NCBI RefSeq assembly: GCF_036226685.1
Contig: NZ_CP109009.1
Location: forward strand, 5,731,501 to 5,795,500
Reading direction: 5' to 3'
From: Streptomyces sp. NBC_00690
Lineage (GTDB): Bacteria; Actinomycetota; Actinomycetes; Streptomycetales; Streptomycetaceae
DNA: 64,000 nt
Numbering within the stretch: the stretch's first letter is position 1; the number at the start of each line of letters is the position of its first letter. Shown piece by piece: positions 27,897-37,021 of this stretch. The notes beneath the pieces were generated by a model, which saw nothing but the letters and a program-made list of their open reading frames with translations, was not told where the DNA came from and did no database searches. The position numbers and the translations under genes are program-made.

Positions 27897-28904
27897 GTGA
27901 GCACTAACGGCCATGCACCTGCGGACCGCACCGAAGAACCGGACCGCACCGATCGCGCGGACCGTGGCGAACACCAGGGCCCGACCGCGCCCGTGAGCCT
28001 CACCGCGCCCAGCGGAATCGACCGCCAGGCACACCACCGGCTCGACGAGGCATGGCTGGCGGCAGCCTGGAGCCACCCGACCACCAGAGTGTTCGTGGTC
28101 TGCGGTGGCCAGGCACTGATCGACGACACCCCCGACGGCCGCACCGAACTGGTGATGACCCCGGCCTTCGAAGCCCCCGTCACCGAAACCCACCGCTACT
28201 TCCTCGGCACCGACGAGGACGGCGTGCGCTACTTCGCCCTGCAGAAGGACGCACTCCCCGGCCGGATCGACCAGTCCGCCCGCCCGGCCGGACTGCGCGA
28301 AGCCGGACTGTTGCTCTCCTCGCGCGACACGGCGCTCCTGGTCCACGCGGTCGCCCTGGAGAACTGGCAGCGGCTGCACCGCTTCTGCTCGCGCTGCGGC
28401 GACCGGACCGTCATCGCCGCCGCGGGTCACATCCGCCGCTGCCAGGCGTGCGGCGCCGAGCACTACCCGCGTACCGACCCGGCTGTGATCATGCTCGTCA
28501 CCGACGAGGACGACCGGGCACTCCTCGGACGCCAGCTGCACTGGCCCGAAGGGCGCTTCTCCACCCTCGCCGGCTTCGTGGAACCCGGCGAGGCCATCGA
28601 GCAGTCCGTACGTCGGGAAGTGTGGGAGGAGGCCGGGGTCACCGTCGGCGAGGTCGAGTACGTCGCCAGCCAGCCCTGGCCCTTCCCCTCCAGCCTGATG
28701 CTCGGCTTCACCGCCCGCGCCACCTCGTCCGACATCACCGTCGACGGCGAAGAACTGCACGAGGCCCGCTGGTTCTCCCGGGACGACCTGCGCAAGGCAT
28801 TCGAGTCCGGCGAGGTGCTCCCGCCGTACGGCATCTCCATCGCGGCCCGGTTGATCGAACGGTGGTACGGCCAGCCGCTGCCCAGGCCCGGCAGCGGACT
28901 CTGA
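27897..28904 (+). CDS. nudC: NAD(+) diphosphatase NudC (NUDIX)
   Basis: A 335-residue NUDIX hydrolase that cuts NAD(H) into NMN(H) and AMP and in other bacteria removes NAD caps from RNA. The zinc ribbon is CSRCG (about 163) and CQACG (about 182). The NUDIX box GFVEPGEAIEQSV...REVWEEAGV starts near residue 225. The SQPWPFPSSLM motif that marks NADH pyrophosphatases follows. The N-terminal 40 residues are Arg/Asp/Glu-rich and disordered. The GTG is preceded by GGGGGAGATGGAAG. It follows the M20 gene by 45 nt and may share its transcript. Confidence 0.95.
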   Translation: MSTNGHAPADRTEEPDRTDRADRGEHQGPTAPVSLTAPSGIDRQAHHRLDEAWLAAAWSHPTTRVFVVCGGQALIDDTPDGRTELVMTPAFEAPVTETHRYFLGTDEDGVRYFALQKDALPGRIDQSARPAGLREAGLLLSSRDTALLVHAVALENWQRLHRFCSRCGDRTVIAAAGHIRRCQACGAEHYPRTDPAVIMLVTDEDDRALLGRQLHWPEGRFSTLAGFVEPGEAIEQSVRREVWEEAGVTVGEVEYVASQPWPFPSSLMLGFTARATSSDITVDGEELHEARWFSRDDLRKAFESGEVLPPYGISIAARLIERWYGQPLPRPGSGL

Positions 28905-28969
28905 CCTGGACTTTCCCGCGCAGCCAGCAGCCCGCCCGACCTGACCCACGGACGGGTGAGGGAAGCAGT

Positions 28970-29173
28970 ATGGGTGCCTCTACGGCAGCACCTGAGGGCG
29001 GACTTCACACCCGCCCAGGTCCTGCCTGGTCTGCCCCGGTCACAACCCCCGAGCAGCGGGCAACCATCCTCACCTACGGGTCTGCCCCGATCCGTCCCGG
29101 TCTCAAAGGCGGCCGACCGTCCGGACACAGCGTCGGAGCGGAGCTCAACGACGCACGAAGCGAGGCCCGGTGA
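28970..29173 (+). CDS. possible small hypothetical protein
   Basis: A 67-codon frame starting with ATG behind GAGGGAAG at good spacing, ending just before a terminator hairpin. The predicted protein is Gly/Ala/Pro/Arg-rich with no motif that I recognise, and third-position bias is only moderate. It could equally be the 3' UTR of nudC. Listed because start and SD are good. Confidence 0.3.
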   Translation: MGASTAAPEGGLHTRPGPAWSAPVTTPEQRATILTYGSAPIRPGLKGGRPSGHSVGAELNDARSEAR

Positions 29174-29181
29174 ACGCCGGA

Positions 29182-29205
29182 GGGACCCCGCGCTCGCGGG
29201 GCCCC
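29182..29205. terminator. bidirectional hairpin between nudC side and mycoredoxin
   Basis: GGG-CCCCGCG / CGCGGGG-CCC with a 2-nt apex (CT) lies between convergent genes, so it can end transcripts from both sides. Confidence 0.7.
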
Positions 29206-29245
29206 TCCGACATCACAGCACATGGACACACGGGCGTACGAGGGA

Positions 29246-29500
29246 TCAGGAGGCGAGCGCCTGCTTCACCTGGGCCAGGCTCGGGTTCGTCATGACCGAC
29301 TCGCTCCCGGCCGGAGAAATCACGAGGAGGGTCGGCACGGTCTGGTTGCCGCCGTTCGCCTTCTCCACGAAAGCCGCGGACTCCGGGTCCTGCTCGATGT
29401 TGATCTCGGTGTACGCGATGCCCTCGCGATCCATCTGGCCCTTCAGCCGACGGCAGTATCCGCACCACGTGGTGCTGTACATCGTCACAGTGCCCGACAT
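29246..29500 (-). CDS. mycoredoxin-like glutaredoxin
   Basis: An 84-residue thioredoxin-fold protein with the redox motif WCGYC (Cys 13 and 16), a cis-Pro in TVPTLL (about 56) and a C-terminal SLAQVKQAL helix. This matches actinobacterial mycoredoxin (Mrx1), which uses mycothiol to reduce mixed disulfides; Streptomyces makes mycothiol and not glutathione. GAGGGACG precedes the ATG. It ends with its own hairpin and is convergent with the nudC side. Confidence 0.9.
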   Translation of the reverse strand: MSGTVTMYSTTWCGYCRRLKGQMDREGIAYTEINIEQDPESAAFVEKANGGNQTVPTLLVISPAGSESVMTNPSLAQVKQALAS

Positions 29501-29721
29501 CGTCCCTCGTGCTCCTTCGTCTCACGGCGACCCCACGCACCCGCTGGTGCGCACGCACCAGGTCAAACGCACGGCCTCCGGCCACCATTCCCGAATCCGA
29601 CATCGCCGCAGCCCTCTGCCGATGCCCGGCAGGACGAGCCCCTTCGCCTTCGCCTTCGCCGGTGTCCGAGCCAGCGGGATCGGTCGATCGGCGGCGATTC
29701 ATACGACTACTCCGGCTCCCC

Positions 29722-29730
29722 TGTGGACAA
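29722..29730 (-). promoter_or_regulatory. DnaA-box nonamer (TTGTCCACA on minus strand)
   Basis: Exact Streptomyces-type DnaA box, 40 nt upstream of the uvrD2 start codon. It could bind DnaA at the uvrD2 promoter. Confidence 0.5.
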
Positions 29731-29769
29731 CCGCCGCAGCCGCCTCCGCAGACCTGGCAGCATGGCAGG

Positions 29770-31944
29770 GTGACAGCAGCAACGCACTCCTCCCTTTTCC
29801 CGCAGGTCCCCGAGTCGGCCGACGCGGTGCTCGACGGGCTCGACCCCGAGCAGCGCGAGGTGGCGACCGCCCTGCACGGTCCCGTGTGCGTGCTGGCCGG
29901 TGCCGGCACCGGGAAGACCCGAGCGATCACCCACCGCATCGCCTTCGGCGTCCGAGCCGGCATCCTCCAGCCCTCCAGTGTGCTCGCCGTCACCTTCACC
30001 AACCGTGCTGCGGGAGAGATGCGAGGACGGCTCCGGGAACTGGGCGCGGGCGGTGTCCAAGCACGCACCTTCCACTCCGCGGCCCTGCGACAGCTCCAGT
30101 ATTTTTGGCCAAAAGCCGTCGGTGGTGATCTGCCTCGACTTCTGGAGCGCAAGATCCAACTGGTGGCCGAGTCCGCTGCCCGCTGCCGGATTCGTCTTGA
30201 TCGCAATGAGCTGCGCGATGTCACCAGCGAGATCGAATGGGCGAAAGTCACCCAAACCGTTCCCTCTGACTATCCTGCCGCCGTCGCCAAATCCCTTCGT
30301 GATGCCCCTCGCGATTCATCGGAAATCAGCCAAATCTACGGAATGTATGAGCAGCTGAAGCGGGATCGCGCCGTGATTGACTTCGAGGACGTCCTTCTCC
30401 TCACGGTCGGCATCCTCCAGGACCGCCACGACATCGCCGACCAGATCCGCCGCCAGTACCACCACTTCGTGGTCGACGAGTACCAGGACGTCAGCCCGCT
30501 CCAGCAGCGCCTCCTCGACCTCTGGCTCGGCGACCGCGACAACCTCTGCGTCGTCGGCGACGCCAGCCAGACGATCTACTCCTTCACCGGAGCCACCCCG
30601 GACCACCTGCTGAACTTCCGCACTCGGCACCCCTCGGCGACCGTGGTGAAACTGGTCCGCGACTACCGCTCCACCCCCCAGGTCGTCCATCTCGCCAACG
30701 GCCTGCTCAGCCAGGCCCACGGCCGAGCCGCAGAGCACCGGCTCGAACTGATCTCACAGCGCGACCCGGGGCCCGAGCCGTCCTACACGGAGTACGCGGA
30801 CGAACCCGCCGAAGCCGAAGGCACCGCACGCCGCATCCGAGAACTGATCTCCGAAGGCGTCCCGGCCGGGCAGATCGCCGTGCTCTACCGCATCAACGCC
30901 CAGTCCGAGGTCTACGAGCAAGCCCTCGCCGACGCCGGAGTGCCTTACCAGTTGCGCGGAGCCGAGCGCTTCTTCGAGCGCCAGGAAGTGCGGGAAGCCG
31001 GAGTCGCCCTCCGCGGCGCTGCCCGCGCCGGCGGCAATGACTCCCTGCTCGACGACGCCGAGGACCTCCCCTCCCAGGTGCGTGCGGTCCTTTCCACCAA
31101 GGGGTGGACAACAGAGCCTCCGGCCGGCTCCGGAGCGGTGCGGGACCGCTGGGAGTCCCTGGCCGCCCTGGTGCGGCTCGCCGAGGACTTCACCCGCGCC
31201 CGACCCGGGGCCACCCTCACCGACCTCGTCGCCGAACTGGACGAGCGGGCAGCAGCCCAACACGCACCCACCGTCCAAGGCGTCACCCTCGCCTCCCTCC
31301 ACTCGGCCAAGGGCCTCGAATGGGACGCGGTGTTCCTCGTCGGCCTCACCGAGGGCATGATGCCGATCACCTACGCCAAGACGGACGAGCAGGTCGAGGA
31401 AGAGCGACGCCTGCTCTATGTCGGTGTCACCCGAGCCCGGTTCCACCTCGCCCTGTCCTGGGCGCTGGCCCGCTCACCCGGTGGCCGAGCCACTCGCCGC
31501 CCCACACGCTTCCTCAACGGAATGCGACCGGGAAGCACAGCTGCTGGGGCCCGAGGCGCCGGCGGCCAAGGCGGGATCGAGCGAGGCGCCGGGGGGCGCC
31601 GAAAGCGCCGGGGCCCAGCCTTGTGCCGAGTCTGCGGAAAGACGCTCACGGACGCGGGCGAGATGAAGCTGATGCGCTGCGAGGACTGCCCTTCCAACAT
31701 GGACGAAGGGCTCTACGAACGGTTGCGGGAGTGGCGCGCCGGCCAAGCCAAGCTGCTCGGGCAACCCGCCTATTGCGTGTTCACCGACAAGACGCTCATG
31801 GCGATCGCCGAAGCCGTCCCCGGGGACGAGCGCGAACTGTCCGCCATCTCCGGAGTCGGTGGCCGCAAGCTGGACCGTTTCGGAACCGACGTCCTCGCCA
31901 TCTGCGCAGGCCAGGAGCTCGACGAGGGTGAAGACGAAGACTGA
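29770..31944 (+). CDS. uvrD2: UvrD2-type DNA helicase with zinc tetracysteine and HRDC domains
   Basis: A 724-residue superfamily 1 helicase: Walker A AGAGTGKT (about 42-49), FTNRAAGEM, Walker B VDEYQDVSPLQQ (about 235), GDASQTIYSFTGA, and motif VI YVGVTRARFHLALSWA. C-terminal to the motor come a four-Cys zinc element CRVC...CEDC (about 618-640) and an HRDC domain (about 660-715, ISGVGGRKLDRFG). This layout is diagnostic of actinobacterial UvrD2, a DNA repair and recombination helicase. The GTG at 29770 is chosen because coding bias starts there. Within it, roughly bases 30100-30370 use visibly less GC-rich codons than the flanks. Confidence 0.94.
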   Translation: MTAATHSSLFPQVPESADAVLDGLDPEQREVATALHGPVCVLAGAGTGKTRAITHRIAFGVRAGILQPSSVLAVTFTNRAAGEMRGRLRELGAGGVQARTFHSAALRQLQYFWPKAVGGDLPRLLERKIQLVAESAARCRIRLDRNELRDVTSEIEWAKVTQTVPSDYPAAVAKSLRDAPRDSSEISQIYGMYEQLKRDRAVIDFEDVLLLTVGILQDRHDIADQIRRQYHHFVVDEYQDVSPLQQRLLDLWLGDRDNLCVVGDASQTIYSFTGATPDHLLNFRTRHPSATVVKLVRDYRSTPQVVHLANGLLSQAHGRAAEHRLELISQRDPGPEPSYTEYADEPAEAEGTARRIRELISEGVPAGQIAVLYRINAQSEVYEQALADAGVPYQLRGAERFFERQEVREAGVALRGAARAGGNDSLLDDAEDLPSQVRAVLSTKGWTTEPPAGSGAVRDRWESLAALVRLAEDFTRARPGATLTDLVAELDERAAAQHAPTVQGVTLASLHSAKGLEWDAVFLVGLTEGMMPITYAKTDEQVEEERRLLYVGVTRARFHLALSWALARSPGGRATRRPTRFLNGMRPGSTAAGARGAGGQGGIERGAGGRRKRRGPALCRVCGKTLTDAGEMKLMRCEDCPSNMDEGLYERLREWRAGQAKLLGQPAYCVFTDKTLMAIAEAVPGDERELSAISGVGGRKLDRFGTDVLAICAGQELDEGEDED

Positions 31945-31958
31945 GCGAAACTCGTCGG

Positions 31959-31997
31959 AAAAATAGTTTGCGCACGCACCAGCGCTCACCATAGGTT
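31959..31997 (+). promoter_or_regulatory. wblC promoter with WblC-type AT-rich element
   Basis: AAAAATA (31959-31965) lies just upstream of a -35 TTGCGC (31968-31973). An 18-nt spacer leads to a -10 TAGGTT (31992-31997). An AT-rich stretch abutting the -35 is the known mark of promoters activated by WhiB7/WblC, including their own. Transcription should start near 32004, giving a leader of about 625 nt. Confidence 0.75.
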
Positions 31998-32107
31998 CTT
32001 AACCACGCGAACAGCGCTTCTCCGAAGCACTGTCATCGTGGTGTACTTATCCGAATACAGCGACCGGCCCCGGCCGGTCCCCGAGACGCCGAGAGGAGGC
32101 GAGTCCA

Positions 32108-32434
32108 GTGATCAGCAACAACACCAGCTTCAACAACGCCGTGAAATTGACCGATCGCTCGGTCGTCGTCTCCGCCTGCTCGCTCGGCTTCTCCGCGTCG
32201 CTCCATGGCACCGGTGTGTCCAGCTTCTCCGCAGAGATGCCTCTGGCTCCCCTGGGCGGATTCCCCGTCCTGGAGCGGATCGAGCGACCGACCAAGGCAC
32301 TGGAAGCAGGAGTAGCAGCGGCAGAGGCGAATGCCTATGCCTTTGCGGCAGCCAGTGCCGGCACCAAGAAGCAGACGCAGCACGACATGAAGTGGGCCTT
32401 CCGCGGGCTCGAACCCTGGAGTGATCCAGCCTGA
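32108..32434 (+). CDS. wblC upstream ORF (leader protein, 108 codons)
   Basis: GTG preceded by GAGAGGAGGC at good spacing opens a 108-codon frame inside the wblC leader. The product is Ser/Ala-rich, with VVVSACSLGFSASLHG in the middle and QTQHDMKWAFRGLEPW near the end. I recognise no domain. It stops 24 nt before the attenuator hairpin. Codons near the end (32399-32406) contain the strand that can disrupt that hairpin. It is probably a translated sensor of ribosome inhibition; a role for the free protein is not excluded. Confidence 0.75.
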   Translation: MISNNTSFNNAVKLTDRSVVVSACSLGFSASLHGTGVSSFSAEMPLAPLGGFPVLERIERPTKALEAGVAAAEANAYAFAAASAGTKKQTQHDMKWAFRGLEPWSDPA

Positions 32435-32468
32435 GGTAGATCAGGCCGGCGCCTTCAGGGCCGCGGAA
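32399..32468 (+). promoter_or_regulatory. candidate antiterminator helix of the wblC leader
   Basis: TTCCGCGG (32399-32406, inside the upstream ORF) is perfectly complementary to CCGCGGAA (32461-32468), which covers most of the left arm of the attenuator. Forming it prevents the terminator. Two small hairpins lie between: CTGGA/TCCAG (32416-32429) and CCTGA/TCAGG (32430-32445), the latter holding the ORF stop codon. Confidence 0.55.
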
Positions 32469-32499
32469 CCCCACTCGGGTACCGCGGCCCTTCTGTTTT
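32458..32499 (+). terminator. intrinsic attenuator in the wblC leader
   Basis: GGGCCGCGG / CCGCGGCCC forms a perfect 9-bp stem with a 15-nt loop and is followed at once by TTCTGTTTT. This is one of very few hairpins in the window with a real T-tract. It lies 130 nt upstream of wblC, so it should abort wblC transcription unless antiterminated. Confidence 0.85.
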
Positions 32500-32628
32500 C
32501 CCCAAAACCAGGGAGTCAGAGCGAAGGGGCCTCGGGACAGCACCACCCGGTACCAGCCCCCCGGTTCGCCCGGGGGACCACCAACCGGCCAACCGGCCGG
32601 ACCGAACAAGACGAGGAATGACACCACC

Positions 32629-32997
32629 GTGCAACTCGAAGCGCACGCCCCGTCCGTACCGCCTTCCGAGACCATCCCCCCGCGTGTCCGCCCGGAGGAC
32701 TCCACCTTGACCCCGCTGACTGCGCTCACCGCGCTCGACGACGCCATCGAGAACCTGGGCGTACCCGTTCCTTGCCGTTCCTACGACCCCGAGGTCTTCT
32801 TCGCCGAGTCGCCCGCCGACGTGGAGTACGCCAAGGCTCTCTGCCGCACCTGCCCGCTCATGGAGGCATGCCTTGCCGGTGCCAAAGAGCGGCGTGAGCC
32901 GTGGGGTGTGTGGGGCGGAGAGCTCTTCGTTCAGGGAGTCGTCGTAGCCCGCAAGCGGCCCCGTGGGCGTCCGCGCAAGAACCCGGTCTCGGCATGA
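32629..32997 (+). CDS. wblC: WblC (WhiB7) redox-sensitive transcription activator
   Basis: A 122-residue WhiB-like iron-sulfur transcription factor. The four cluster cysteines are C49, C72, C75 and C81 (PCR...LCRTCPLMEAC). The turn GVWGG follows at 93-97, and the AT-hook RGRPRKN (about 113-119) is specific to WblC/WhiB7. With the principal sigma factor it activates genes for intrinsic resistance to translation-blocking antibiotics. The GTG has GAGGA 11 nt upstream. Regulation by its own promoter element and by leader attenuation is supported by the sequence. The downstream small gene overlaps its stop. Confidence 0.98.
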   Translation: MQLEAHAPSVPPSETIPPRVRPEDSTLTPLTALTALDDAIENLGVPVPCRSYDPEVFFAESPADVEYAKALCRTCPLMEACLAGAKERREPWGVWGGELFVQGVVVARKRPRGRPRKNPVSA

Positions 32998-33317
32998 ACA
33001 TCATCGGGACCATCGACCGCCCCCTCACGCACGAACCCAAGAAGCAGGCCCCCATGCCCTCTTCCGCGAGTGAGCCTTCCGGCTCCGCGACCCCAGACGT
33101 CAGCACCACCGGCGCGAACGCCTCGCGCCAGAACAGGACCCGCGAAATGCAACTCATCCCAGAAGCCCTGGCTCGTGCGCATATGCACGACCGCATGCGT
33201 GAGGCGGAGAGCGAGCGCAGAGCCATTCGGCTCCTGACCGCCCGACGCATGCAGCGCCGCGCCGAGCGTGTTTCTCTGCGCGCTCGTCGTGCGCTCGCCA
33301 TGGCTGTCATGAACTGA
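32994..33317 (+). CDS. small basic hypothetical protein co-transcribed with wblC
   Basis: A 107-residue protein; its ATG overlaps the wblC stop (ATGA), so it is translationally coupled to wblC. The first 50 residues are Pro/Ser/Thr-rich. From about 55 to 107 it is a long, Arg-rich amphipathic helix (ALARAHMHDRMREAES, then ERRAIRLLTARRMQRRAERV). An internal ATG at 33054 could give a shorter form. The basic helix suggests RNA, ribosome or membrane contact; no known family is recognised. A strong terminator follows. Being in the wblC transcript, it may share control by antibiotics. Confidence 0.6.
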   Translation: MNIIGTIDRPLTHEPKKQAPMPSSASEPSGSATPDVSTTGANASRQNRTREMQLIPEALARAHMHDRMREAESERRAIRLLTARRMQRRAERVSLRARRALAMAVMN

Positions 33318-33330
33318 CAACACGAACCTC

Positions 33331-33362
33331 GCAGGGGCCGGTCCGTTCGGACCGGCCCCTGC
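33331..33362 (+). terminator. strong terminator of the wblC operon
   Basis: A perfect 14-bp stem GCAGGGGCCGGTCC / GGACCGGCCCCTGC closed by a GTTC loop, 14 nt past the stop of the small basic protein gene. Confidence 0.92.
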
Positions 33363-33396
33363 GGTGCGTTGTCTCCACTGCCCGTCGCCCCAGGGT

Positions 33397-33402
33397 TATC
33401 GT
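33397..33402 (+). promoter_or_regulatory. -10 box (TATCGT), predicted leaderless promoter
   Basis: TATCGT ends 6 nt before the GTG of the zinc-ribbon gene, with no SD sequence. Confidence 0.45.
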
Positions 33403-33408
33403 CACTTC

Positions 33409-33609
33409 GTGGACCAGCAGCCCTGCCCGGAGCCGTCGGATACCCAGCCCATCGTGTGTGCCCGCTGCGGTAGAACCGCAGAAGGCGAGGGAGCCCCGGC
33501 CACCTGGACCTACTCCATGGAGGACGGAAGCCGTCGCTACTACTGCGACGACTGCGCCCGCGCCCACATCAGATCGATCGAAAGCAGACTCGACTCCAAC
33601 TGGTGGTGA
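33409..33609 (+). CDS. small zinc-ribbon protein
   Basis: A 66-residue soluble protein with two Cys pairs, CARC (17-20) and CDDC (46-49), which together form a likely zinc ribbon. It ends with a short helix, RAHIRSIESRLDSNWW. The GTG is chosen because a -10-like box lies 6 nt upstream and the homologous reading starts with MDQQPCPE. The function is unknown; such small ribbons often bind nucleic acid or protein. Confidence 0.75.
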   Translation: MDQQPCPEPSDTQPIVCARCGRTAEGEGAPATWTYSMEDGSRRYYCDDCARAHIRSIESRLDSNWW

Positions 33610-34348
33610 CACCGGCGCGAGGCCCAAAGACGCCGCCGTCACGACCAGTCGCAGACTCCGCCCGTTCTCTCACAGCCCCGCTCCACCTAGAGGCGGCCCC
33701 GCCAGCCACGCAGCGGATGGACCCCCGCGTCCCACTGCCCCGGGGACAGAACCGACAGCGCCTCGGCTTCAAACTCCGATCGGACTGCTCAAGTGGACGT
33801 GGGGGATGGGGGCGAAGCGAGGGAGAGATGAGAGCGCTCCGAAGTCTCGACGCTGACTTCACCGAGCCGGCCTTCGCCGAGCACCTGGATCCAGGCGACT
33901 GTCAGGTGTGCAGAGGGGGCGAAGGAACTGAGCTCGGCCATGGGAAGTTTCTGCTTCCTGCTGGGGCCCTCCCCCCTCCCCTCCCCCTCCCACCCCTTTG
34001 TTGTGACGCATGGCTGCTCCGCGGGCATGCCTCTGGTCGCCTTGGCTCGGACCGTCAGGGTGGGTGCGCATGCCAACCCTGCGCGCCGGCTCCTGGTGAC
34101 GTCCCGTGCCCGTCCCCGACCAGGCAGTGCCCATCTGTCTAGCCTTGGTGCTTGGTGCTTGGTGCTCGGGTACTCGTCACTCCTGTGCTGGTGGCCGCTC
34201 CGCGTTCGGGGCCAGTTGTTGTGCGATGGCGCGACCTGAGAGGGCGCAGCCAACCAGCTACTGTCCGTCGGGACTCGCCGCAGTCTCGGTGGCTTCTGCG
34301 CACTCGGCACTCCCAGCGCTCTCCGTGCTCACAGCGTTCTCAGTCTGC
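33610..34348. other. non-coding gap with pyrimidine tract
   Basis: About 740 nt with no convincing gene. One frame (33829-34142, ATG behind GAGGGAGAG) has an SD but poor codon bias and runs through a pyrimidine tract. Repeats such as GTGCTTGGTGCTTGGTGCTC (about 34147-34166) are present. G/C content and codon patterns look decayed. Confidence 0.5.
33967..33996 (-). other. G-quadruplex-prone tract on minus strand
   Basis: The plus strand has 30 nt made almost only of C and T, so the minus strand carries runs GGGG, GGG, GGGGG, GGGG and GGGGGG separated by single bases. This satisfies a G-quadruplex pattern many times over. It lies about 350 nt beyond the 3' end of the leftward ABC1 gene. Confidence 0.6.
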
Positions 34349-34351
34349 TCA
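34298..34351 (-). repeat. degenerate 9-nt tandem repeat beginning at a stop codon
   Basis: Reading the minus strand from the TGA stop of the ABC1 gene: TGAGCAGAC, TGAGAACGC, TGTGAGCAC, GGAGAGCGC, TGGGAGTGC, CGAGTGCGC. Six units share the pattern NGAGNNCGC loosely. It is the most eroded example of the stop-codon repeats in this window. Confidence 0.5.
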
Positions 34352-35710
34352 GAGCTCTGCGCTTGCCACACTGCTGTCTTCCTCCTCCGGAAGGAAGCCT
34401 GGTACCCATGCCTCCAGTTCGTCCCGGAGCCGCACGCTGGCATTGAGCTGACACAGGACGCCAATGGTGCTCAGGGTCACTCTGTGTATCAGTAGATAGG
34501 CCGGCGGCAGATTCAACTGCTTGCCCAGTTGGTGGGCGGGGGAGCGGATGTCGGCGATCCTCGCAGCCTGCGTGCGCATCCACTGCCGGGTGAAGGTGAA
34601 CTCTTCCAGGTCGGCAGGCTCGATGATCGGTACGAGGTACTCCAGTACCGCTTCTGGGTCGAGGTCTATCTCGTCCTTGACGAAGCCTTCGGCACACAGC
34701 AGCTCGTACACCATGTCCGCTTCGCCCTCCAGCGCCATCCGAAGACAGTCGCCGATGGGCTGGGGAAGCCCCCCGGGCAGCCGGTCGACAGTTCCGAAGT
34801 CCAGTACGCCCAGTCGCCAACCCTCGCCGTCCTCATCGGGAAGGAGCCGGAAGTTCCCAGGATGGGGATCGGCGTGCAGCAGCCCGGTCCGGGCAGGGCC
34901 GGAGAAGAGGAAGCGTGCCAGCAACTGCCCGGCTCGGTCCCGCTGCTCCACCGTGCCGTCCGCGATCACCTCGGCCAGGGGAATGCCGTCGATCCACTCC
35001 GTCACCAGCACCTGATCGGACTGGTGGACCACTTCAGGCACCACCACATCGGGGTCGTCCGCGAACTCCTCCGCGTGTTCCCGCTGTGCTTGTGCCTCCA
35101 GGCCGTAGTCCAACTCCTCCGACACCCGGTCGCGCAGCTCGTTGATCAGTGGTTTGAGATCCATCCCGGGAATCAGCGGGCCCAGCAGTTTTGCGAAGCG
35201 GCTCAGCTGTGTCAGATCGGAGAGCAGTGCTTCGCCCGCGCCCGGATACTGCACCTTCACAGCGACCTCACGCCCGTCGTACCAGACGGCACGATGAACC
35301 TGGCCGATGGATGCGGCGGCGGACGGTTTGTCCTCGAAGTTGGAGAACAGCTCCCGCCAGTCGTCCCCCAGCTGCTCCGTCAGTACCTTGTGCACGGTCC
35401 GTGTCGGCATCGGCGGAGCCGCGTCCTGGAGCTTGGTCAGTGCGGCGCGATAGGGACCCGCGATGTCCTCGGGGAGAGCCGATTCGAAGACGGACAACGC
35501 CTGCCCGAACTTCATGGCCCCCCCTTTCAGCTCGCCGAGGACTTTGAAGAGCTGATCAGCGGTGCGCTGTTGCAGCTCCCGGGCGACGAGCTCCGCGGAC
35601 TTGCCACCGATGCGCTTGCCCAGCCCCCAGGTGGCTCGGCCGGCGAAGCCCAAGGGCAGTGCGGCCAACTTGGCGGTCCGGGTGACCGCCTTCCGGGGAA
35701 GATCAGACAT
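34349..35710 (-). CDS. ABC1/AarF (UbiB-like) atypical kinase family protein
   Basis: A 453-residue protein of the ABC1/ADCK/UbiB family. It shows the family's KGGAMKFGQ motif (about 61-69), the Ala-rich loop AAASIGQVHRA (about 130), the catalytic loop ADPHPGNF (about 285) and the metal site VLDFGTVD (about 307). All expected residues are present, so ATP binding is likely. Known members support isoprenoid-quinone or lipid metabolism; the target here is unknown. The ATG at 35710 is preferred because GGAGGGGC lies 5 nt upstream. It lies 39 nt after the ThiF-like gene on the same strand. Confidence 0.9.
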   Translation of the reverse strand: MSDLPRKAVTRTAKLAALPLGFAGRATWGLGKRIGGKSAELVARELQQRTADQLFKVLGELKGGAMKFGQALSVFESALPEDIAGPYRAALTKLQDAAPPMPTRTVHKVLTEQLGDDWRELFSNFEDKPSAAASIGQVHRAVWYDGREVAVKVQYPGAGEALLSDLTQLSRFAKLLGPLIPGMDLKPLINELRDRVSEELDYGLEAQAQREHAEEFADDPDVVVPEVVHQSDQVLVTEWIDGIPLAEVIADGTVEQRDRAGQLLARFLFSGPARTGLLHADPHPGNFRLLPDEDGEGWRLGVLDFGTVDRLPGGLPQPIGDCLRMALEGEADMVYELLCAEGFVKDEIDLDPEAVLEYLVPIIEPADLEEFTFTRQWMRTQAARIADIRSPAHQLGKQLNLPPAYLLIHRVTLSTIGVLCQLNASVRLRDELEAWVPGFLPEEEDSSVASAEL

Positions 35711-35749
35711 AAGCCCCTCCAAAACCCAGACAGTTGCGCCGCGTGCGTC

Positions 35750-37021
35750 CTACGGCCCTGACTCCGTTGACTGCGGATGGTCCATTGTCTCGTGACTGGA
35801 CGTCGAGCCCGAGGTTTCGGCCCCCTCACTTTTGCCAGCTGCACCGCAGCCGCAAGCCTCGTGTGCCCGGAGGCGCTCCGACCGCCAGCTCAGCATCGGC
35901 TGGGCAACCTCCCAGCGTGCGCCAACGCTCAACGGTAGGCCCCCGTCGAGGAACGACAGCGTGTGCGCCGCCACCAACCCGGCCACGGTTGCGGCGAGAG
36001 AGATGTCACATGCGGGCACCGCGTTCCTTCGGCTCCCCGAGCGCCACTGAGCGAGCAGCCGTGGCCATCCCGGGTCCCTATCGGCCCTGCACCGTTCCCA
36101 GCAGCCGGCGCAGGCGGACCCACCGGGCAGCACCAGAGGGCCCACGAAGCCCGTGGCCTCCACCACCCCGGCATAGAGATGAGGCGTCCCGGTGGTGATC
36201 CAATGCTCGGCTCGTGCTGGATCGGGTGCGTACGCCGAAAGGCCGTCGCGAGGGCAGACCACGATCAATGACACCGCAGGTTCCGAGCAACTCGGCGCAG
36301 AGACTTCGCCTCCGGAGGGGGAGCGACGGTGAGGGGCGGGGTCTTCCTCCATCGCGGTGGGTCCGCGATCAGGAGTTGTGATCCGCATGGCCAAGCCATT
36401 GGTGCGCCTTCCGGCACGCGGCGTCGGGTGCGGCGCGCTGTCGCGCACCAGCCGACGGACCGCGACATCACGCCTTTCACCCACGGCTCCCGGCGACAGG
36501 CCGCCAGGTGCCGTATCCCAGGATTCGACGCACCCGCCGTCGAGGGTGTCGACGCGCCCCACACCGGCCGCGGACAGCAGTGCTGCCACGGCTGCGCCGA
36601 CCCGACCTGCACCGCGGACCTGGACTCGCATCGCGTGGCGGGCCGCCAGATGTCGGATCGCGGCGCCCGGACCGGGGTGGACCACCGAGAGCGATGCCAG
36701 ATCGGGGCGGAGACGGTGAAGCCGACCGGGTTTGGCGCGCAGCACATCGGCGGCAGGCCCGCCCGCGGTCGGATCGTCGAGCAGCCCGGCCGCGGTGAGG
36801 CGGCCGATCAACGCGTCGGTCTGCCCGTCGGGGAGGCCCATCGCATGGGCTTCCTTGCGTAACAGCGGCAGCCCTCGGGTTCCGTCGAATAGCTGGAGGA
36901 GGCTCCCGGTGGCCGGGTCCATCGGCCCGACCACGACCGCGTGGGCGGGTGTCACGCCGAACTGCACGGTCTGTCGCTCTCGCCATGTCCGTCGCAGCGC
37001 GGGCTTCACCATCGGATGCAT
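35750..37021 (-). CDS. orphan ThiF/cyclodehydratase-like protein (E1-like family)
   Basis: A 423-residue protein related to the ThiF-like part of TOMM cyclodehydratases and E1-like proteins. After an N-terminal region (FGVTPAHAVVVGP, then LFDGTRGLPLL) comes a Rossmann segment RGAGRVGAAVAALLSAAGVG (about 136-155). Further on are SLIVVCPRDG, a CAGC pair (about 308) and CGCG (about 393), a probable zinc site. The adenylation residues look weak (GAGRVG instead of GxGGLG). No precursor peptide or cyclase is adjacent, so the role is unclear. The ATG follows GGGGAGTT. It contains one TTA codon (36860-36862), predicting bldA dependence. Confidence 0.75.
   Translation of the reverse strand: MHPMVKPALRRTWRERQTVQFGVTPAHAVVVGPMDPATGSLLQLFDGTRGLPLLRKEAHAMGLPDGQTDALIGRLTAAGLLDDPTAGGPAADVLRAKPGRLHRLRPDLASLSVVHPGPGAAIRHLAARHAMRVQVRGAGRVGAAVAALLSAAGVGRVDTLDGGCVESWDTAPGGLSPGAVGERRDVAVRRLVRDSAPHPTPRAGRRTNGLAMRITTPDRGPTAMEEDPAPHRRSPSGGEVSAPSCSEPAVSLIVVCPRDGLSAYAPDPARAEHWITTGTPHLYAGVVEATGFVGPLVLPGGSACAGCWERCRADRDPGWPRLLAQWRSGSRRNAVPACDISLAATVAGLVAAHTLSFLDGGLPLSVGARWEVAQPMLSWRSERLRAHEACGCGAAGKSEGAETSGSTSSHETMDHPQSTESGP

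Follow-up and report, generated by a model that had tools for sequence, protein, structure and literature searches.

Layout of the wblC leader

The window, a 64,000-nucleotide stretch of a 9.17-Mb, Streptomyces-like genome, contains wblC at positions 32629 to 32997 of the forward strand, on which all features described below also lie. The encoded protein has a WhiB domain (PF02467, E 7.5e-15) and the motif RGRPRK near its C-terminus, and is the top of ten WhiB-like matches in its own genome; an NCBIfam search with the product gave no match. A domain search identified the upstream neighbor (29509-31944) as a UvrD-type helicase with an HRDC domain. Judged by the PF02467 domain and the helicase upstream, the gene downstream of the leader appears to be the whiB7/wblC orthologue. 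Among 150 Streptomyces genomes, 148 had one match each to wblC at E 1e-30 or better.

To compare leaders within the genus, we used 195 Streptomyces leaders, namely those fetched for which a terminator and an upstream open reading frame (uORF) were called, and a thinned subset of 118. The genus leaders came from 80 of 568 named loci (the best relatives, all of them Streptomyces), from later fetches, and from further picks, most of which favored the diverged end of the lists. By sequence reading, the leader in the window begins with a putative promoter (31958-31997) in which the block GAAAAATAG (31958-31966) directly precedes a -35 element, TTGCGC (31968-31973), followed by a -10 element, TAGGTT (31992-31997), so that the AT-rich block described earlier as abutting the -35 is indeed present. 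The arrangement GAAAWH / -35 / TANNNT recurs in 189 of the 195 Streptomyces leaders, and in most of them the block is GAAAAA, which departs from the published GAAAWY at one base. The published WblC site GAAAWY is placed 3 nt upstream of the -35 in the legend to Figure 8 of PMC7157823; at exactly this spacing the window has AAAAAT, which agrees at five of six bases. A generic sigma-70 scan called no promoter at the wblC leader.

The uORF (32108-32434) has 108 codons, from a GTG start at 32108 to a TGA stop at 32432-32434, and is preceded by the Shine-Dalgarno (SD) sequence AGAGGAGG at 32092-32099, which suggests that it is translatable. An SD match of 5 to 7 bases was found in 195/195 Streptomyces leaders, with the caveat that SD strength helped to choose the start. 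On starts chosen partly in this way, uORF length in these leaders has a median of 107 amino acids (5th to 95th percentile, 94 to 118), and by this measure the length in the window is typical of the genus. The uORF product had no match in Pfam or NCBIfam.

Several smaller features of the uORF region were also noted. The SD region (32087-32101) lies within a nearly invariant CGCC..GGCG hairpin, in which 99.4% of cells are paired over 118 Streptomyces leaders, an invariance that provides no evidence of covariation. Near the uORF start (32144-32155), the rare codons AAA (183/195) and GAT (170/195) are conserved. In the middle of the uORF, GAGCGACCGACC (32282-32293) shows high nucleotide conservation and includes a rare CGA codon in 192/195 leaders; none of the pairings tested accounts for this conservation. 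Two candidate structures were not supported by permutation, an N-terminal uORF hairpin at 32149-32167 (924/1000 permutations as good) and a long-range pairing of TCGGTCG with CGACCGA (615/1000 permutations as good).

A predicted terminator and an alternative fold share one strand

Between the uORF and wblC we found a predicted intrinsic terminator, consisting of a hairpin at 32457-32491 (-30.0 kcal/mol, z -6.9 by folding against shuffles) and the T-rich tail TTCTGTTTT at 32491-32499. A strict terminator scan, which requires five T within eight bases and accepts no loop longer than 8, listed none at the wblC leader. The order given in the original prediction, from the promoter through an SD and a 108-codon ORF to a complementary segment, a T-tailed terminator and wblC, is borne out by the sequence and the domain search, including the strong SD and the terminator after the uORF.

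The original prediction also pointed to an 8-nt uORF segment complementary to the left arm of this terminator, and 32399-32406 (TTCCGCGG) is in fact the exact complement of 32461-32468. Taken alone this match is modestly unusual, as a run of at least 8 appeared in 1.2% of 3000 mononucleotide shuffles. The match is part of a longer putative antiterminator (32392-32474), comprising helices that we call P1, P2 and P3. Folding and comparison delimit the 5' strand of P1, GTGGGCCTTCCGCGG (32392-32406), which includes the 8-nt segment; its 3' strand (32461-32474), delimited by folding and the own-versus-foreign test described below, covers most of the terminator's left arm as well as some of the terminator loop. 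In P1, GTGGG..TTCCGCGG is paired with CCGCGGAA.CCCAC, which adds a GTGGG/CCCAC extension to the 8-nt match. P2, supported by the consensus fold and the own-versus-foreign test, and for its 5' strand also by the fixed-register test, continues P1 by pairing CCCTGGAG (32414-32421) with CTTCAGGG (32453-32460). Because P2 also occupies the base of the terminator, the whole left arm would be sequestered. P3 is a hairpin across the uORF stop codon (32426-32449, with 32426-32434 paired to 32441-32449), for which six inner pairs covary. The region 32388-32478 has a folding energy of -50.4 kcal/mol (z -3.9), which 0/200 shuffles equaled. Sequence from the uORF and from the terminator could thus combine into an antiterminator, though a fixed-register test of P1 was negative (see below). 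Of the two small hairpins that had been placed between the 8-nt segment and wblC, the one at the stop codon is conserved as P3, whereas the CTGGA/TCCAG hairpin competes with P2 and was not seen in the predicted folds of other families.

Conservation within Streptomyces

Of 210 unique leaders at genus and order level, 206 have a called hairpin with a T-rich tail. The four order-level leaders without a called terminator (L204, L212, L213 and L218) were dropped; all four are matched by the covariance model R1 described below. Over the 195 Streptomyces leaders, 98.3% of cells in the 8-bp register of P1 are paired. Covariation of the two strands, which had been proposed as a check, is another matter: 56/1000 permutations were as good as the observed P1 core, and 1000/1000 were as good for the outer pairs of P1 and for P2. 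Because P1 and P2 are nearly invariant in Streptomyces, the permutation test says nothing there. P3 does covary, with 17 cells changed on both sides over its six inner pairs and 0/1000 permutations as good (118 Streptomyces leaders). An alifold consensus of the full leader contained P2, P3, the core of the terminator and a further helix, P0 (see below), and it showed the terminator instead of P1.

Conservation across the class

A WblC relative at E 1e-20 was found in 130 of 148 genomes of the class. From the 119 non-Streptomyces genomes with a match we chose 60 leaders to span families, and 57 of these had a hairpin with a T-rich tail. The other three (L245, L265 and L279) were dropped; R1 matches L245 and L279 but not L265. 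Under our uORF rule a stop located anywhere 12-45 nt ahead of the stem was accepted, and hence the finding of a uORF in 263/263 leaders carries no weight alone. The class-level candidate uORF mostly ends 20-27 nt before the hairpin, with the qualification that several calls outside Streptomyces are doubtful (e.g. L214, L229, L250 and L271).

In RNA that stops short of the right arm, the left arm is predicted to pair mostly with the uORF: across 94 leaders chosen as representatives, 92 gave this pairing a probability above 0.5, and when the uORF end was shuffled the mean of 20 shuffles exceeded 0.5 in 29/94. Outside Streptomyces the pairing was predicted in 66 of 68 leaders (Wilcoxon p 7e-13, with relatedness ignored). 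The alternative pairing, whose lack in other species was to count against the original prediction, is predicted to recur there. By eye, the strand pairs in individual leaders include GGGATCCGC with GCGGATCCC, GGGTGCC with GGCACCC, and GGAGTCC with GGACTCC.

A register-free test compared the duplex formed by a leader's own strands with duplexes formed with foreign partners. For 91 leaders (three of the 94, L239, L242 and L250, were left out of this and the fixed-register test) it gave z -8.3 for P1 and z -11.2 for P2. When each of 28 families was represented by a single leader (mean of 200 draws), the values were z -3.3 for P1 and -6.0 for P2; the own partner did better than the mean of the foreign ones in 21 of 28 families for P1 and 24 of 28 for P2. 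In the fixed-register test, positions were counted from the uORF stop codon in 65 leaders outside Streptomyces. There P1 was 62.6% paired versus 59.7% when permuted, with 53/2000 permutations as good, and one leader per family gave z -0.5. P2 was 76.9% paired versus 70.7%, with 0/2000 permutations as good, and z 2.1 with one per family outside Streptomyces. The register varies by family; the free test allows for this, yet the case for P1 as a strictly homologous helix is weakened, and it is the register-free test, not the fixed-register test, that supports P1. A MAFFT class alignment (A1, 68 of the 94 leaders) was not in structural register, and no conclusion was taken from it.

A second alignment, A2, was built from 21 of 26 listed leaders, all of them non-Streptomyces; it omits L238, L244, L250, L260 and L274, which look less regular. 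None of 500 shuffles of A2 reached its fraction of paired cells (79.5% versus a mean of 76.5%) or its covariation score (0.128 versus 0.098). In two other measures shuffles did as well more often: 38/500 reached the number of pairs changed on both sides and 122/500 the number of further pair types. The covariance model R1 was made from A2. In the genome containing the window, on scoring of 150 out of 13074 first-look candidates, its only reported match (E <=1) was 32398-32475 of the window (E 2.4e-5). At E 0.01 it had matches in 52 of 118 class genomes, and a comparison of positions placed 51 of these at the whiB7 leader; in three of the 51 there is also a match on the opposite strand. This search used stricter filters that lose weak matches, so the 66 genomes with no match are no evidence of absence. 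Two matches lie outside whiB7 leaders (G304:C3:439878-439947, E 0.0013, and G244:C196:27757-27835, E 0.0029); about one is expected by chance, and both probably arose that way. With R1 the leader, which matches no Rfam family, gains a covariance model: Rfam gave no gathering-level match in 10 leaders and, over 28000-37000 of the window, one sub-threshold match located away from the leader. A search of 32385-32500 against plasmid and phage records found no match at E 1e-5.

Effect of a translating ribosome on the predicted fold

Two partners are open to the left arm of the terminator, namely its right arm and the uORF 3' end, and this alternative recurs across the class. We folded the leader with a ribosome placed at different positions. 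With the RNA ending at 32480 and the P-site at 32300, 32330, 32357 or 32372, P1 was predicted with a probability of 0.97-0.98, the same as in RNA to 32480-32482 carrying no ribosome. With the P-site at 32390, 32400 or 32410 and RNA to 32480-32482, the predicted probability of P1 was 0. A ribosome at the uORF end removed P2 and P3 and left P1 at 0.70-0.82 in a model that permits pairing across the ribosome; a ribosome between both P1 strands would presumably make P1 uncompetitive.

Once the RNA extends to 32500, the terminator was favored at each of ten ribosome positions (0.75-0.98) and with no ribosome (0.84), and in the latter case it is predicted to win already at an RNA end of 32486 (0.96). 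Because equilibrium favors the terminator, antitermination would have to be kinetic, with the antiterminator forming, and probably trapped, before the right arm is made.

The element is very probably the wblC/whiB7 leader attenuator, in which translation of the uORF sets the choice between terminator and antiterminator. Ribosomes that finish the uORF close behind RNA polymerase would hold P1 open, then P2 and P3; the terminator would form and wblC would not be made. If an antibiotic or a shortage of charged tRNA slows or halts ribosomes upstream of about 32380, the antiterminator would form first, polymerase would read through, and WblC would then activate its own promoter. Attenuation by uORF translation, as originally predicted, agrees with the comparison and with publications, but its detail needs amending: a ribosome at the stop codon lies past 32399-32406, and would therefore act by keeping P2 and P3 open and not by covering the 8-nt strand. 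The regulator governed by this switch acts in intrinsic resistance to many antibiotics that target the ribosome, and the comparative structure specifies the exact strands of the switch.

It could be argued that the uORF is a plain conserved small protein gene, whose end codons reflect the peptide (e.g. a stalling or functional C-terminus) with the pairing as a by-product. The C-terminus WAFRGLEPWSDPA is, after all, strongly conserved across Streptomyces, and WSPPV recurs in other families. Yet the codons at the uORF end are conserved beyond the amino acid (codon 102 is Glu GAA in 172/172, codon 106 is Asp GAT in 182/182 and codon 103 is Pro CCC in 195/195 Streptomyces leaders), although Arg codon 99 alternates between CGT and CGC, both of which keep P1 paired; P0, P2 and P3 covary. 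The peptide also varies among families while the pairing persists, and the uORF matches no Pfam or NCBIfam entry. A by-product of peptide conservation is therefore very improbable, and the comparative structure suggests that the uORF codons under the tightest conservation serve as RNA strands. Control by Rho or an RNase in place of intrinsic termination is harder still to credit, given the strong hairpin and T-rich tail in 206/210 and 57/60 leaders; moreover, Rho would act when translation stops, which is the opposite sign to induction by antibiotics.

Relation to published attenuators

A uORF attenuator of whiB7/wblC has reportedly been described by Lee, Lee and Roe in 2022 and by Burian and Thompson in 2018. 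In their available sections, PMC10727445, PMC9618640, PMC11550727 and PMC13393426 cite Lee, Lee and Roe (2022) for attenuation. The introduction of PMC10727445 describes ribosome stalling that leads to an antiterminator hairpin formed from overlapping uORF and terminator sequences; excerpts of PMC9618640, PMC13393426 and PMC11550727 mention a terminator and an antiterminator for whiB7/wblC. Attenuation of S. coelicolor WblC appears, with no structural detail in those places, in the legend to Figure 8 of PMC7157823 and the discussion of PMC12421871, and PMC4128351, in the part available, reports a uORF and a terminator in mycobacteria. As far as these texts go, the published attenuator (Dinan 2014 in mycobacteria; Lee 2022) has the same gene, uORF and terminator, has an antiterminator drawn from both, and is induced by translation inhibitors and by lack of amino acids. 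These texts show no categorical difference between it and the leader in the window.

The mechanism of wblC attenuation, judged from these excerpts, is already published. The antiterminator pairing and the uORF length, which had been put forward as possibly new, do not differ in kind from what is published: the introduction of PMC10727445 describes pairing of this kind, and the length is near the genus median of 107 amino acids. What the present analysis adds is comparative support across the class, a more complete antiterminator and a tract of alanine codons, the last possibly new. The ribosome-mediated attenuators of antibiotic-resistance (ARE) ABCF genes (are5sc, tiaA and vmlR), as presented in excerpts of PMC12421871, are alike in having a uORF, a terminator, an antiterminator and induction by ribosome-targeting antibiotics. 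According to the same excerpts the are5sc and tiaA uORFs are very short (MLV and MVGDDDISG), whereas the wblC uORF has about 100 codons and a switch that overlaps its 3' end.

An alanine tract within a covarying hairpin

Upstream of the antiterminator, codon counts and a codon alignment revealed an Ala-rich tract of the uORF (32297-32359), encoded partly by rare GCA codons. The tract is enclosed by P0, a predicted helix between 32296-32303 and 32352-32359. Over 118 Streptomyces leaders P0 covaries at seven pairs, with 17 cells changed on both sides and 0/1000 permutations as good, and 32290-32365 folds with z -3.2. In the 195 Streptomyces uORFs, Ala makes up 37-49% of codons 25-50 counted back from the stop, versus 12% in a codon reference made up of 17 long ORFs of the window and not of the whole genome. 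The richest 20-codon stretch has a median Ala count of 10 (range 7-14) and begins, at the median, 26 codons from the stop (5-95%: 24-34), while 67 leaders of other families have a median of 7 Ala, at varied places. By these sequence counts the number of Ala codons is raised modestly in Streptomyces, and what stands out is their fixed place.

Codon choice within the tract is also biased. In codons 35-50, toward the upstream part of the tract, where GCA is enriched, 58% of Ala codons have A at the third base versus 8% in the reference; third-base A is likewise frequent in codons for Val (65%), Arg (85%) and Gly (47%). It is not raised for Pro, Thr, Leu or Lys, so this is no plain A+T effect. In codons 25-35 only 7% of Ala codons end in A, and one GCA codon of the tract is fixed by the P0 strand itself.

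In amino-acid attenuators (trp and his, and ilvBNC in Corynebacterium), control codons precede hairpins that exclude one another. The Streptomyces leaders likewise carry, ahead of the switch, a run of Ala codons whose place is fixed, and this tract, inside its covarying hairpin, may function as a control region. In the folding model, a ribosome waiting anywhere in the tract leaves P1 free, and one awaiting alanyl-tRNA there would leave the antiterminator free. By comparison with these attenuators, drawn partly from an excerpt of PMC11550727, the wblC Ala tract occupies the place that control codons would have. The likeness has limits: wblC/whiB7 responds broadly to antibiotics, and the sensing of alanine in Streptomyces is putative. 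It is conceivable, if doubtful, that the uORF is a genus-wide alanine control region through which wblC senses antibiotics as well as alanyl-tRNA (GCA-reading). The codons of the tract may alternatively serve RNA structure or pausing. The tract makes the question of alanyl-tRNA sensing by wblC in Streptomyces specific and cheap to address.

According to papers that cite it, work by Poulton from 2024 reports a response of mycobacterial whiB7 to alanine. Alanine sensing in Streptomyces would run parallel to this response, with an independently shaped leader. In the literature on wblC, alanine and uORFs that was available in part, we found no description of the tract.

Sensing could instead take place at initiation, with antibiotics halting ribosomes at the uORF start; the inner codons would then be irrelevant and the Ala tract incidental, and the attenuator itself would be unaffected, as the two are compatible. 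Stalling at the start codon is shown for the Streptomyces are5sc and tiaA uORFs in excerpts of PMC12421871, and our model gives equal P1 for any ribosome upstream of about 32372. Against this, the position of the tract is fixed in Streptomyces, and the available text of PMC12121999, citing Lee 2022, states that amino-acid starvation too induces whiB7. Sensing at initiation is a serious possibility that falls a little short of being probable; the same 2025 paper states, in the part available, that stalling within the whiB7 uORF had not been tested.

Table 1 of PMC7157823, as available, lists alaS2 in the S. coelicolor WblC regulon. In the genome containing the window, two alanyl-tRNA synthetase genes were inspected over about 0.7-0.8 kb of upstream sequence, and neither showed a WblC-type promoter there. 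The second of these genes (L288, C1:4600500-4601500 of the same genome) lies, by eye, downstream of an acetyltransferase-like gene and a transposase fragment.
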